Below, in pieces: positions 44,944-52,340 of a stretch of 64,000 nucleotides of DNA. The notes beneath the pieces are model-generated. The model was given only the letters and a program-made list of their open reading frames with translations, had not been told where the DNA came from and searched no databases. The stretch spans positions 1,116,001-1,180,000 of the forward strand of contig NZ_SHLI01000001.1 of NCBI RefSeq assembly GCF_004217415.1. Reading direction: 5' to 3'. The translations under genes and the position numbers were made by a program. Position 1 is the stretch's first letter. Each line of letters begins with the position of its first letter. This stretch comes from Spiribacter vilamensis (GTDB lineage: Bacteria > Pseudomonadota > Gammaproteobacteria > Nitrococcales > Nitrococcaceae).

Positions 44944-46218
44944 TCAGTGTGCGTGCAACGCGGAGAGTATCTCCGGGAGCTGTTCAGTGGCCACCGTCAC
45001 CTGCTCGATCCCGTCACGCAGGTACTTGACGGCGACGGTCCCAGCGGCTGCCTCCTCGGCGCCGCGTATCAGCGCGACGGCCGCACCGCTTCGGTCGGCG
45101 CGGCGCAGCTGGCTTTTCATCGACCCGCCACCGAGGGGCATCTGCAAATGCAGCCAGGGCAGCTGGTCGCGCAGCTGCTCCGCGAGTGCCAGTGTCTCCG
45201 CCTGCAGACTATCATCACCAACCACCAGTGCCGCATGCGGCGCCGGGGCGGGTGGTGCAGTCCCCGCCGCCTCGACAAGCGCGACCAGGCGCTCGAGACC
45301 GGCGGCAAAGCCGATGGCGGGTGTCGGACGGCCGCCGATCATCTCGACGAGAATGTCATAGCGCCCGCCGGCCAGCACGGTCCCCTGCGCCCCCAGATCG
45401 GCACTGATCCACTCGAAAACCGTCCCGCCGTAGTAATCCAGGCCACGCACGAGCCGGGTGTTGACATGGTAGGACTGGCCGGCGCGATCGAGCATGTCGC
45501 ACAGGGACTGGAAATGCGCTCGTGATGCATCGTCGAGGTAGTCGGACAGATCCGGCGCCGCGTCGATAATCGACGCCATGGCCGGATTCTTGCTATCGAG
45601 CACCCGGAGCGGATTGCTGTGCAGCCGCCGTTGCGCATCCTCGTCGAGCACCGCGGAATGGGCCTCGAAGTGCGCGATCAGCGCCTCACGATAATGCTGG
45701 CGGGCGGCCTGGGTGCCCAGGCTGTTGATCTCGAGACGCAGATCCCGAACCCCCAGGGCGCGAAGGATACGGCCGGAGAGCAGGATCAGCTCGGCATCGA
45801 TGTCCGGCCCGGGCACACCAAACGCCTCGGCACCCACCTGGTGGAACTGGCGATAGCGCCCCTTCTGCGGACGCTCGTGACGGAACATCGGACCGCTGTA
45901 CCAGAGCCGCGGCTGGGCGTTGTGCAGGAGGCCGCGCTGCAGAGCGGCACGCACGGCGCCGGCGGTACCTTCGGGACGCAGGGTGAGGCTGTCGCCGTTG
46001 CGGTCGGTAAAGGTATACATCTCCTTCTCGACGATGTCGGTCACCTCGCCGATGGCCCGGGAGAAAAGCTCCGTTTTCTCGACAACCGGCAAACGGACCT
46101 CGGTATACCCGTAGCGCTCGAGCTCGCGGCGGAACGTCTGTTCGACAAACGCCCAGGCAGGCCCCTCCGCCGGCAGCACATCGCCGAAGCCGCGAACATT
46201 CTGGATCGGACTACTCAC
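44944..46218 (-). CDS. hisS: Histidyl-tRNA synthetase
   Basis: HisS charges tRNA-His. It has 424 residues. Class II motif 2 is [17 protein letters not shown], the histidine A loop is [14 protein letters not shown], and motif 3 is near [12 protein letters not shown]. The C-terminal anticodon domain is present. The frame is open upstream inside rodZ. GTG at 46218 (or the adjacent GTG at 46221) is chosen because it gives the conserved [13 protein letters not shown] start, right after a run of Gs that can act as ribosome site. It overlaps rodZ by 8 bases; ispG, often found between them, is absent. Confidence 0.96.
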
Positions 46219-47257
46219 CACTTCCCCCCAACGTGAATCGGGCAACGTTGCCGCGCGCGTACTGCTCCAGATCGATTTGATCACCGTCGAATTCAAGCCC
46301 AACGTTGTCGGTATTCCCGACCACGATCTCGAACGGCGCTTCGCCCTCGAGCCGCTGCTCACCGGATTCGGCGATCCCGAAGAGCAGCCGCTCACCGCTT
46401 GCATCCGTCACTTCCATCCAGGATTCCGCGTCGAACTGGAATACCAGTACATCGGCGGACGGCGCGCTATCCGGTTCCGTCGGCTCCGGCGATTCCTGCA
46501 TGACGGCGTCAGCGATGGCGGCATTGTCCAGCGTAGGTGTCGGCGGAGCAGTCGCGTTCTCGCCAGCTGAGCTTTCTCCCGACTCGGACTCGGACCCGGG
46601 CTCGGGCTCCGGACGTGGTTGGGGGTCGGCTGCGGAAATCTGCTCGTCGGTGGGCTCCGGCTCGGACTGTGGCTCGAAGCCCTGTTCGGGCTGCGTTGAC
46701 TCCTCCATCGCCGGTTCAGCGCTGTCTGTCCCGGGCTCGGCATCGCCGCCATCAATGAGGCTGCCACTGACCGAATCGAGAATCGGCACGCTGATATCCG
46801 ACCGCGACAGCCACCAGCCGCCAGCGACCAGCGCGGCAATCAATACCGCCAGGCTCAGGGCTACGCCCATGAACCCCATGCCCTGGCGTGCCTGCCGGGC
46901 CGGTCGGGCCGGTCGACCGGGGCGGCTCGCAGGCGCGGTATCACCGGCATGCGCCCGAAGGGGCTGCCTGCCACCCCCCGCGCCGGCATCACCGAGGCGC
47001 TGAACCAGCGGTTCCGGATCCATCTCGAGGAACTGGCAATAGGCGCGGATATAACCACGCACGAATGTCAGCGGCGGGAGGTTCTCGTAATCGTCGGCTT
47101 CGAGCGCCTCGATCGTCCGGGGGTTGAGGTGCAGTGCATCGGCGATATCGGCCGGGGCCTTGTCCCAGCGCAGCCGGGCATCCCGTAGCGCCCGGCCCGG
47201 CCCCGAATGGGCGCGCTCGGCGTGGTTTGTCTCACCCGAATCTTCCCGCTGCGTCAT
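46211..47257 (-). CDS. rodZ: Cytoskeleton protein RodZ
   Basis: RodZ links MreB to the membrane for rod or curved shape. It has 348 residues. There is an N-terminal HTH_25 domain ([41 protein letters not shown]), a basic Pro/Arg juxtamembrane stretch (about 105-125) and one membrane helix (about 130-150). A long acidic Pro/Glu/Ser linker (about 170-250) leads to a C-terminal DUF4115 domain ([16 protein letters not shown]). ATG at 47257 is preferred over TTG at 47260. It follows pilF by 7 bases. Confidence 0.93.
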
Positions 47258-47264
47258 CAAGCAT

Positions 47265-49617: not shown

Positions 49618-49941
49618 TCACACGGCGAAGCTCTCGCCACAGCCGCATTCCGCAGAGACATTCGGATTCCGGAAGCTGAACCGTTCGTTGATTCCCTCGC
49701 GCACGAAATCCACTTCCATGCCATCGATGAACGGCAGGCTCTTGCGATCGATGACCACCGATACGCCGTGCTGCTCCACCACCATGTCGTTTTCGCCCGG
49801 CTCGTCGGCGTAATCCACCGTGTACATGAAACCCGAGCACCCGGACGTCCGCACGCCCAGCCGCAGGCCGGTGCCCTGCCCGTTTCGAGCCAGGGCGTTA
49901 CGGATGTGATTCGCCGCCCGCTCAGTCAATTCAATGCTCAT
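49618..49941 (-). CDS. iscA: Iron-sulfur cluster assembly protein IscA (A-type carrier)
   Basis: A 107-residue A-type carrier that can hold and pass [2Fe-2S] or [4Fe-4S] clusters. All three ligand cysteines are present: C35 (SGCSGF), C99 and C101 (CGCGESF). The close family is IscA/ErpA/SufA; position in a remnant isc locus favours IscA, but ErpA is possible. It overlaps the preceding degenerate scaffold gene by 11 bases. Confidence 0.9.
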   Translation of the reverse strand: MSIELTERAANHIRNALARNGQGTGLRLGVRTSGCSGFMYTVDYADEPGENDMVVEQHGVSVVIDRKSLPFIDGMEVDFVREGINERFSFRNPNVSAECGCGESFAV

Positions 49942-50311
49942 CGTTTGCTCCGTCTATCACTTCAGTCGATGCGGCCAGTGCGGACCGCAACGCGTCCTCG
50001 ATATCGAGTGCCACCGTGCGCGCCTCGTCGGGCAGCGCCGCGGCCTCGGCCAGCCAGCGTCCCGTCACTGTGAGTGCCGAGGCAACGCTCCGGTCCGCCA
50101 GCCAGTCCGCGAGCCAGGCAGCGGCCTGCATTGCCTCGGGACCGCCGAAGACCTCGAAACGCGCCTCGCGCACGCTTTCCTTATCGACCCGCACCCAGCA
50201 GTCCACCCGGCAACCCTCATCGATTCGGCCGGCCGATCCATGACACCAGTCGACCCGATCGACGGGGACGCCCAACTGTTTCGACTCCCACAATCTCCGA
50301 TCATCCCCCAT
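49931..50311 (-). CDS. Degenerate IscU-like protein lacking cluster ligands
   Basis: A 126-residue protein in the place of iscU, 4 bases after iscS and overlapping iscA. The core VREARFEVFGGPEAMQAAAW matches the IscU pattern around its second ligand (ARFKTYGCGSA), but that Cys is Gly57 here. The end LPDEARTVALDIEDAL matches LPPVK..HCSILAEDA, with the HC pair replaced by T99-V100 and the HscA-binding LPPVK changed to LPDEA. The first ligand position is also not Cys; shifted cysteines C34 and C38 lie nearby. It therefore cannot build clusters like IscU. It could be a structural or regulatory partner of the desulfurase or a decaying gene. The start ATG at 50311 has a weak ribosome site. Confidence 0.75.
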   Translation of the reverse strand: MGDDRRLWESKQLGVPVDRVDWCHGSAGRIDEGCRVDCWVRVDKESVREARFEVFGGPEAMQAAAWLADWLADRSVASALTVTGRWLAEAAALPDEARTVALDIEDALRSALAASTEVIDGANDEH

Positions 50312-50315
50312 GGAT

Positions 50316-51533
50316 TCAAGCCATTTCGAGCGCGGTTGTGAAACCGTAAGCGGAATGGACCGTGTGACGACCTTCACCGATGTCGCGCCAGAGGGGCGAG
50401 ATGGAGCGGAGCATGCCAACCGCGTGGGTCACCGCCGCCATCGCCCGGTCGATTTCCTCCTCGGTCGTAAACCGGCCGAGGCTGAGCCTTACCGATGCGT
50501 AGGCCAGCGCATCCGGTCGCCCCATCGCCCGGAGTACATGCGAGGGGCCATCCCGCCGACTGCACGCCGACCCGAACCCCACCGACAGATCGCTCAGGGC
50601 CGCCCGTAGCGCCCCGCCATGGACTCCGGGGAAAGACACGTTGAGGATATGCGGCGCCCGGTCGTCGCCACCATTGACCACCACGCCGCCCAGGTCGTGC
50701 AGGGCCTGCCGCATGCGCCGCTGAAGCGCATACTGCCGGCACCGTTCCGCGGCATCGTCGACAAGGCGCAACGCCTCGCCCATTCCCGCGATCAGCGGGA
50801 CCGGCAGCGTCCCCGAGCGCAGCCCCGCCTGCTGCCCGCCACCGTGGAGCAATGGCGACAGCCTTACGTCCGGACGATAACAGAGCGCACCAATGCCCTT
50901 CGGTCCGCAACACTTGTGCGCCGACAGCGATACCAGATCGGCATATCCATAGGCGCTGGTATCCGCGAGTCGGCCGAGTGCCTGCGCCGCATCAAGATGG
51001 AGCCGTGCCCCGACCTCGTGGATCGGGCCCGCCAGCGTCGGGATGTCCTGAACAACGCCGGTCTCGTTATTCACCAGCGCCAGCGACACCAGTGCCACGT
51101 CGGTATCCAGCGCGGCGACGAGCGTCTCCGGTGCCAGGCGCCCATCCGCCGCGACGGGCAGGGTTTCCACCTGCATGCCATATTCGCGCGCGGCCTGCGC
51201 CGCGGCCAGCACCGCGGAATGCTCGGTGGCGGTGACCAGTATCCGCCGCCGCGGTTCGCCACGCTTCGCCAGCGCTCGGCTCATCCCGAGAATGGCGAGG
51301 TTATCGGCCTCGGTGGCGCCGCTGGTCCAGACCGTCCGGAATGCCGCATCACCCAGCGTTTCACACACCTGCGCCTCCGCCGCCTCAACCCGTGCCGCTG
51401 CCGCCTGGCCGGCGGGATGGGCGCTGGACGGATTGGCGAAGACTCCGTCGGGCCCCTCGAGGCTGGCCATCAACGCCGAGACGCGCGGATCAACGGGGGT
51501 GGTTGCGGCATAGTCGAGATAGGGTTGCGTCAT
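50316..51533 (-). CDS. iscS: Cysteine desulfurase (IscS/NifS-like)
   Basis: This PLP enzyme takes sulfur from cysteine for Fe-S clusters and thiolation. It has 405 residues. Key residues are seen: H105 in TATEHSAVL, D181 (LHLDAAQALG), the PLP Lys K207 (SAHKCCGPKG) and the persulfide Cys C324 (GSACSRRDGPSHVLRAMG). LSLGRFTTEEEID and SPLW near the end are IscS-like. The last ~20 residues (GRHTVHSAYGFTTALEMA) differ from the usual IscU-contacting tail. ATG at 51533 is preferred over GTG 51539, since GGTGAG lies 6 bases before it. It follows cysE directly. Confidence 0.92.
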   Translation of the reverse strand: MTQPYLDYAATTPVDPRVSALMASLEGPDGVFANPSSAHPAGQAAAARVEAAEAQVCETLGDAAFRTVWTSGATEADNLAILGMSRALAKRGEPRRRILVTATEHSAVLAAAQAAREYGMQVETLPVAADGRLAPETLVAALDTDVALVSLALVNNETGVVQDIPTLAGPIHEVGARLHLDAAQALGRLADTSAYGYADLVSLSAHKCCGPKGIGALCYRPDVRLSPLLHGGGQQAGLRSGTLPVPLIAGMGEALRLVDDAAERCRQYALQRRMRQALHDLGGVVVNGGDDRAPHILNVSFPGVHGGALRAALSDLSVGFGSACSRRDGPSHVLRAMGRPDALAYASVRLSLGRFTTEEEIDRAMAAVTHAVGMLRSISPLWRDIGEGRHTVHSAYGFTTALEMA

Positions 51534-51539
51534 TGCCAC

Positions 51540-52340
51540 TCACCGATCGCCAGCGGTCCCGGTGGACTCCGTCTCCGGATCGTCCTGCAGGCCGCAGTCG
51601 TCGATATCGGGGATATCGCTGTCGTTCACCTCGGCGCCCAGCGACCGGAGCGCATCGCACATCTCCTGGAGACGCGCATCGGTCTGGTGGACGTGATCGA
51701 GGATGGCGTTGATCGCATTCGCGACCGGATCGGGCATGTCATGCGTTGCGCCGTAGGCATCGAAGCCGATCCGCCGCGCGGTTTCCGCCCGGCGCTGCTC
51801 GGTCTCCGTGAGGGGCGGCGCCTCCGAGGCGATACGTGCGACCCGCGCCGGGATTCCCACCATGGTGGCGTGCGCCGGGACATCCTTGACAACCACGGCA
51901 TTGGAGCCGATTCGGGCGCCCTCCCCGATGTCGAGCGGACCCAGCACCTTGGCGCCGGCCCCCACCACCACGTCATTGCCCAGCGTCGGGTGGCGTTTGC
52001 CGGCTCGCCATGACGTACCCCCGAGTGTCACGCCCTGATACAGCGTGCAGTCGTCACCGACCTCGGCGGTCTCGCCGATCACCACGCCCAGGCCATGATC
52101 GATGAAAAAGCGCCGCCCGATCCGCGCCCCGGGATGGATCTCGATCCCGGTGAGCAGGCGCGCGATCAACGACAGGAACCGGGCGATGATCCCCAGCCGG
52201 TGGTGCCACAGCCAGTGGTTCATACGGTGCAGTATCAGGGCATGGACACCCGGATAGCTGATCAGCACCTCGAAGTAGTTGCGTGCCGCGGGATCGCGGT
52301 CGAAGACGCAGCGGACGTCTTCACGAAGCCGTTTAAACAT
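51540..52340 (-). CDS. cysE: Serine O-acetyltransferase
   Basis: CysE acetylates serine, the first step of cysteine synthesis, feeding the adjacent desulfurase. It has 266 residues. The N-terminal helical part ([18 protein letters not shown]) is followed by a left-handed beta-helix with the active-site region [16 protein letters not shown] and QGVTLGGT. The C-terminal part is longer than in E. coli and very acidic ([19 protein letters not shown]). A -10 box lies 6 bases before the ATG with no ribosome site between, so the mRNA may be leaderless. Confidence 0.96.

Follow-up and report, generated by a model that had tools for sequence, protein, structure and literature searches.

An IscU homologue without cluster ligands, kept between iscS and iscA in Spiribacter vilamensis and its relatives, is a probable docking and regulatory subunit of IscS

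The window, by which we mean the whole stretch of 64,000 nucleotides of S. vilamensis DNA that was analysed, encodes an IscU-like protein between iscS and iscA, and the question arose of what such a protein does once the ligands for its cluster are gone. The name IscU* is used here for this ligand-free IscU-fold protein of 49931..50311 and for its family. Its open reading frame runs on the minus strand from 50311 down to 49931 and codes for 126 amino acids plus stop; it begins 4 bases after iscS ends and shares 11 bases with the start of iscA, in agreement with the first-pass annotation, which had described an intact frame 4 bases from iscS and overlapping iscA. The parts of the gene and the locus are as follows.

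49931..50311, minus strand: iscU*, IscU-fold protein without cluster ligands, 126 aa (from ORF, Pfam, model, Foldseek and alignment)
50316..51533, minus strand: iscS, the cysteine desulfurase partner, with catalytic cysteine C324 (E. coli C328) and the SPLW helix kept
49618..49941, minus strand: iscA, A-type carrier with cysteines C35, C99 and C101, sharing the 11-base overlap with iscU*
51540..52340, minus strand: gene upstream of iscS, at the same place in relatives, named from its sequence as a cysE-like serine acetyltransferase
50216..50218, minus strand: codon of E32 at the C1 (C37) ligand position, from the alignment to E. coli IscU
50141..50143, minus strand: codon of G57 at the C2 (C63) ligand position, from the same alignment
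50012..50017, minus strand: codons of T99-V100 at the H105-C106 (HC) ligand positions, from the same alignment
50198..50203, minus strand: codons of D37 (E. coli K42, an IscS-contact residue, charge reversed) and C38 (invariant in the Spiribacter clade)
50153..50155, minus strand: codon of E53 (E. coli K59, an IscS-contact residue, charge reversed)

IscU* matched Pfam NifU_N (PF01592) with 27.2 bits (cut-off 22, E 4.6e-6). With the NCBIfam IscU equivalog TIGR01999 it reached 24.8 bits, far below the cut-off of 192.4, and so falls outside the functional-scaffold equivalog. An AlphaFold2 model (pLDDT 81.9, pTM 0.75) was compared with the PDB by Foldseek; the top matches were IscU/ISCU chains, and all 48 matches at E <= 0.001 were IscU/ISCU/Isu/NifU-like or SufU chains. 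The TM score to E. coli IscU 3lvl_A, a chain of the IscS complex, was 0.79. By sequence, the family profile A1 matched IscU in the PDB with a best E of 1.4e-21 and SufU chains at about 0.001 at best. Aligned to E. coli IscU (b2529), C37, D39, C63, H105 and C106 are replaced by E32, C34, G57, T99 and V100, and thereby the three cysteines and the His/Asp required of a functional IscU scaffold are all missing. The HscA-binding LPPVK motif reads LPDEA, with A97 in place of K103. The N-terminus is short, only 6 residues preceding the one that aligns with E. coli Y11, and no helix was seen in residues 1-21 of the model. Thus, the product of 49931..50311 has the IscU fold and NifU_N homology and has lost the cluster ligands. 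The first-pass annotation had read it as an IscU homologue with Gly57 at C2, T99-V100 at HC, no cysteine at C1 and LPDEA for LPPVK, and was right in each of these points.

Compared with IscU proper (TIGR01999, PF01592), IscU* shares the fold, the iscS/iscA gene order at the ancestral locus, the C-terminal EDA helix and the GxxG frame of the C1 loop, but it lacks the cluster ligands and LPPVK, has the short N-terminus and carries a reversed charge on the face for IscS. SufU (TIGR01994), which acts in SUF sulfur transfer, is like IscU* a NifU_N relative; it has a desulfurase as its partner, and a scaffold function for clusters is not required of it. SufU keeps three cysteines and an Asp for zinc and has an insertion of 18-21 residues (PMC6006206). 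In contrast, IscU* has neither the zinc ligands nor the insertion, the distance from C2 to HC being 41 residues (57 to 99) as in E. coli IscU (63 to 105), and the Spiribacter genome has a separate SufU. Indeed, this 2.08 Mb genome encodes two NifU_N proteins, IscU* and the SufU of a SUF operon, the latter with cysteines at all three usual places.

The gene order suhB-trmJ-cysE-iscS-iscU*-iscA, followed by ndk-rlmN-rodZ-hisS and a bamB match, is like the surroundings of the E. coli K-12 isc operon (ndk, like the cysE-like gene, was named from sequence), and iscU* has the place next to iscS that isc gene order gives to iscU. A genome with canonical IscU, G063, carries a complete isc operon at the same place. 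By tblastn, E. coli IscR, HscB, HscA, Fdx and IscX gave no match at the Spiribacter locus, IscX being short enough to be missed, and none of the five matched in ten other loci of the order that were taken wide (G001, G014, G015, G017, G018, G024, G025, G026, G030 and G035). Between rodZ and hisS (46211-47260 to 44944-46404), the place of ispG in E. coli, no ispG match was found. The locus is the ancestral isc locus, eroded and without iscR, hscB, hscA, fdx and iscX. Its description as an isc locus in the first-pass annotation therefore stands for the position, but the chaperone and ferredoxin genes are gone and a SUF operon lies elsewhere in the genome. This operon contains a SUF-type Rrf2 regulator, SufB, SufS and SufU, identified by profile, together with sufC, sufD and a DUF59/SufT-like frame that were named as ndk was. 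The one long match of the HscA model in the Spiribacter genome is DnaK, inside grpE-dnaK-dnaJ. In a genome-wide profile search HscA was over the cut-off in none of the 41 IscU* genomes, at a cut-off (708.55) that can miss a real HscA, as that of G099, which lies inside its isc operon and scores 646.5; HscB and Fdx were sought at the locus only. Hence, of the features that go with a functional scaffold, LPPVK is replaced and the HscA, HscB and Fdx genes are missing at the locus. Of the 41 IscU* genomes, 40 have SufB over the cut-off; the one without, G033, is 78% complete. An MnmA match and a TusA are present in the Spiribacter genome.

Two further observations concern iscS. In G030 (L094:5571-6754) IscS aligns as two abutting pieces, as with a frameshift or an assembly error, and a second cysteine desulfurase-like gene, 38-40% identical to E. 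coli IscS, is found directly upstream of iscS at L092:8115-9242 and L083:3480-4556 (G063, G093).

IscU* was found in 41 of the 54 genomes of the order: in 41 of 42 in families f1-f4, the sole one without it (G007) being 74% complete, and in none of the 12 genomes of family f5. iscS and iscA lie beside iscU* in all 41. Position 37 is never Cys, position 105 never His and position 106 never Cys (E. coli numbering, 0/41 each), and Cys at 63 is kept in 19 of 41. Besides the lack of an IscU fold, the first-pass annotation had named as speaking against it close relatives with intact cysteines and a copy that is an isolated sequencing variant; this idea was rejected, the relatives likewise lacking C1 and HC and nearly every f1-f4 genome carrying the gene. 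C2 is missing throughout the Spiribacter clade of 14 (13 genomes of the same genus and G017; the other order rows number 27) and in 8 other genomes of the order, and its presence or absence changes at least 6 times on the best IscS tree of 43 rows. Since the loss of C1 and HC is group-wide while that of C2 is patchy, these counts suggest that C2 was lost later and more than once. Two rows, L106 and L039, both with C2 and without C1 and HC, are included in the cysteine counts and left out of the column, charge and covariation counts.

Other cysteines and relatives were seen in the order. In the f2 IscU* proteins without C2 (L031, L033, L096, L097, L100), another cysteine precedes the C2 position by three residues (WECMG, WECLG, WLCLG), and some relatives have both. 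A further NifU_N-like family with a shared TLxAYC stretch is another non-canonical IscU relative; its members are L111 (G017:C1:1499180-1499431), L112 (G035:C11:26934-27194), L113 (G053:C340:3550-3879) and L114 (G037:C5:43833-44102), and the isc-region query proteins gave no match near these four loci. In f5, 9 of the 12 genomes also lack an IscS/NifS-type match better than E 1e-20, and 9 of 12 (G028, G034 and G036 among them) have no NifU_N protein at all. Because SufB-type matches are present in these NifU_N-less genomes, their SUF sulfur acceptor may be some other protein.

The profile search was extended to 369 genomes of the class, and the cysteines were inspected in 30 loci and in G054, G056 and G057. 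Of the 30 loci, 3 came from the order, 22 had all ligands and 5 were degenerate (G093, G190, G200, G282 and G302). Four of these lack C1 and HC (G093, G190, G200 and G302), with C2 kept in G093, G190 and G302 and lost in G200; G282 lacks C1 only. G057 lacks C1 and C2 and has kept HC. In G093, G190, G200, G282 and G057, trmJ and iscS adjoin the degenerate iscU, and all five genomes have SufB and no HscA over the cut-offs. In G302, IscS and IscU* are fused in one 534-aa frame at the trmJ-cysE site; elsewhere this genome has a complete isc gene set with HscA over the cut-off, and SufB over the cut-off too. Thus, IscS is adjacent or fused in 6 of 6 degenerate cases outside the order. Among the canonical-IscU controls, G063 has HscA and no SufB. 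In G099 the operon includes HscA, and a SufB match is truncated at the contig end (343.7 vs 346.4 bits); therefore, the presence of SUF alone does not predict ligand loss. On the IscS tree 26 order rows form one supported branch (95/99), and five rows from outside the order are unplaced. L018 and L029, whose IscS frames are incomplete, were left out of the IscS trees and the IscS conservation means and kept in the charge counts.

The dN/dS (NG86) of iscU* was 0.16-0.41 in 12 of 13 genome pairs, one pair being saturated, compared with 0.12-0.28 for iscS and 0.03-0.22 for iscA in the 13 pairs. iscU* is under purifying selection and less constrained than iscS and iscA. In 39 of the 41 IscU* rows there is no stop inside the matched stretch; G011, G016 and G037 show one TGA, which falls where the match ends or lies past the frame used. 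G28, L102, E105, D106, A107 and A111 are invariant in all 30 rows of A1. A pseudogene as the main reading was rejected by the dN/dS values and the open frames.

Next to these, the face for IscS was inspected. S. vilamensis IscS has changed residues that contact IscU (E309H, E311G, E347A and E388R, E. coli numbering); the catalytic cysteine and the SPLW helix, which contributes to the IscU site in E. coli (PMC2854127), are kept. With contact positions taken from the same paper, 19 canonical rows, a non-random set of the class loci delivered by the search plus E. coli, were compared with 40 genomes of the order. Uncorrected for shared ancestry, the net charge of the IscU contact face changed from +3.00 in the canonical rows to -0.90 in the order (a value reached by 0 of 3000 random sets of columns), and that of the IscS contact face from -2.21 to +1.20 (a value reached by 28 of 3000). 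The net charge of whole IscS rises too, from -10.4 to -2.5, and part of the shift of its face is therefore general. The three E. coli IscU-IscS contacts K42-E388, Y61-E347 and K103-E311, as named in PMC5176006, are D-R, F-A and A-G in S. vilamensis. In 45 rows, again uncorrected for ancestry, 29 of 33 with an acidic residue at IscU 59 have a basic one at IscS 388, compared with 2 of the 12 others, and without that correction this pair is the third strongest negative one of 8190. Independent pairs on supported branches of the tree amount to 4-5 only, too few to give the ancestry-corrected comparison power, and among them 103-311 had no trend (0.6 the same way and 0.4 the other way). Within the order the two face charges are weakly correlated (Spearman -0.35; -0.47 with five outside genomes), and five members pair R42 with R388. 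As far as the aligned residues tell, the contact positions have changed reciprocally on the IscU and IscS faces. IscS W45, E49, D52 and R55 and seven further positions for TusA, ThiI and CyaY have a clade conservation of 0.41 and 0.49, compared with 0.73 for the whole protein; the helices that face IscU have 0.71 and 0.78, about average, and the arginine patch of IscS, with 0.79, lies outside the trend of the other partner sites.

Retention of a protein beside a sulfur donor after ligand loss suggests a second job, unrelated to cluster building. We consider it probable that IscU* has been relieved of its scaffold function and retained as a docking and regulatory subunit of IscS, where both binding and regulation are inferred. 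SUF would have taken over cluster assembly in the order; the isc locus would then have lost its chaperones, ferredoxin and IscR, and IscU its ligands, while IscU* may have been retained as a dedicated docking subunit. It would most likely dock at the ordinary IscU site of IscS, through an interface re-engineered on both sides. IscS presumably persists for tRNA thiolation and similar uses, and IscU* could tune or gate its sulfur output to these and other non-cluster uses by competing with, or limiting, acceptors such as TusA. In E. coli, according to PMC11302665, IscU alone slightly raises IscS activity, displaces TusA and lowers the TusA-stimulated activity; since it competes with TusA on IscS, a ligand-free IscU could still direct the flow of sulfur. 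Counting for the docking and regulatory subunit are the fold, the retention with iscS and iscA, the selection, the presence of SUF, the missing chaperone genes at the locus, the interface change and the fusion. Counting against docking at IscS are the short N-terminus, the alanine at K103, the charge test uncorrected for shared ancestry, the few independent pairs on the tree, the weak correlation of the two face charges, the five members that pair R42 with R388, and the higher dN/dS. Reversal of K103 to Glu breaks binding in E. coli IscU. Removal of residues 1-12 of E. coli IscU abolishes IscS binding (PMC2854127). The first-pass annotation had offered a desulfurase-binding regulator or decoy as one role; this is favoured by the constant iscS-iscU*-iscA order, the purifying selection, the reciprocal contact change and one fusion, with binding to IscS as its presumed part.

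Small IscS-binding proteins that shift IscS activity, as proposed here for IscU*, are TusA and CyaY, whose folds differ from that of IscU; IscU*, in contrast, is a degenerate scaffold. TusA and CyaY also use IscS sites other than that of IscU, as reported in PMC2854127.

A different role, which we regard as unlikely, is a SufE-like relay in which one cysteine of IscU* would accept persulfide sulfur from IscS and pass it further, C2 in the ancestor and still in many relatives, and C38 (or C34) instead of it in Spiribacter. The small desulfurase partners SufE/CsdE have a single key cysteine, to which the C2-only relatives of IscU* may be compared, and SufE resembles the IscU fold; however, the partner of SufE is SufS, not IscS, and a Pfam scan of IscU* at E <= 1 gave NifU_N only and no SufE family match. 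A relay through C2 would accord with the bridge that C63 of E. coli IscU can reportedly form to C328 of IscS. Of the ligands, C2 alone has been retained, in those 19 order members and, beyond the order, in G093, G190 and G302; C38 is found in all 14 clade members, which all lack C2, and in none of the 27 other order rows. SufU, with its three cysteines on zinc, activates the desulfurase SufS about 40-fold (PMC6006206). But C38, which corresponds to E. coli L43, lies mid-strand (34-43) and is expected from strand alternation to face the core, the eight C2-less order genomes outside the clade lack C38, and C2 is dispensable in view of its repeated changes of state on the IscS tree. For relatives that have C2, a relay through this cysteine is a reasonable interpretation; S. 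vilamensis would need C38 or C34.

That IscU* is an evolutionary relic with little function left, persisting inside the tightly packed iscS-iscU*-iscA operon, we hold for improbable. It does evolve faster than its two neighbours, its N-terminus is short, and the iscA overlap and the 4-base gap to iscS may tie translation of the genes together. Nevertheless, it is kept in 41 genomes of four families with hardly an internal stop and dN/dS well below 1, and the invariant residues, the matched change in IscS and the IscS::IscU* fusion argue against a relic. It is also quite improbable that IscU*, instead of serving IscS, stabilises IscA or some other local protein or acts as its adaptor: iscA is the other constant neighbour (41 of 41 in the order) and overlaps iscU* in S. 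vilamensis, but 3 of the 6 degenerate cases outside the order (G200, G302 and G057) show no iscA match beside iscU*, whereas IscS is there in every one. A scaffold with the new ligands C23, C34 and C38, another role named in the first-pass annotation, is very improbable and was rejected on cysteine conservation: although S. vilamensis IscU* has these three cysteines and C34 takes the D39 position beside the old site, C23 occurs in 1 of 14 clade members (S. vilamensis itself), C34 in 9 and only C38 in all 14, among the other 27 order rows G024 alone has C23 and no row has C34 or C38, C38 is mid-strand, the locus has no HscA, HscB or Fdx gene, and the genome has its SUF operon.

The docking and regulatory subunit of IscS thus remains the reading that we prefer, and a search of the open-access literature gave no description of an IscU that has lost its ligands and stays with IscS. 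More generally, and with slightly less than even confidence, we propose that IscU has a role as IscS subunit that is independent of the scaffold, that this role is strong enough for the protein to persist, with a charge-inverted docking face, across the order long after ligand loss, and that similar losses elsewhere in the class go with SUF and without ISC chaperones. IscU is the textbook scaffold, and its effect on IscS other than as a sulfur acceptor is hard to study, as two roles are combined in one protein. If the proposal is true, IscU* would be a natural separation-of-function IscU that reveals the effect on IscS when cluster building is impossible, and a family without scaffold chemistry, still beside IscS, would make the partition of IscS sulfur among acceptors directly testable. 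For genome surveys it follows that "iscU present" does not mean that an ISC system is present.
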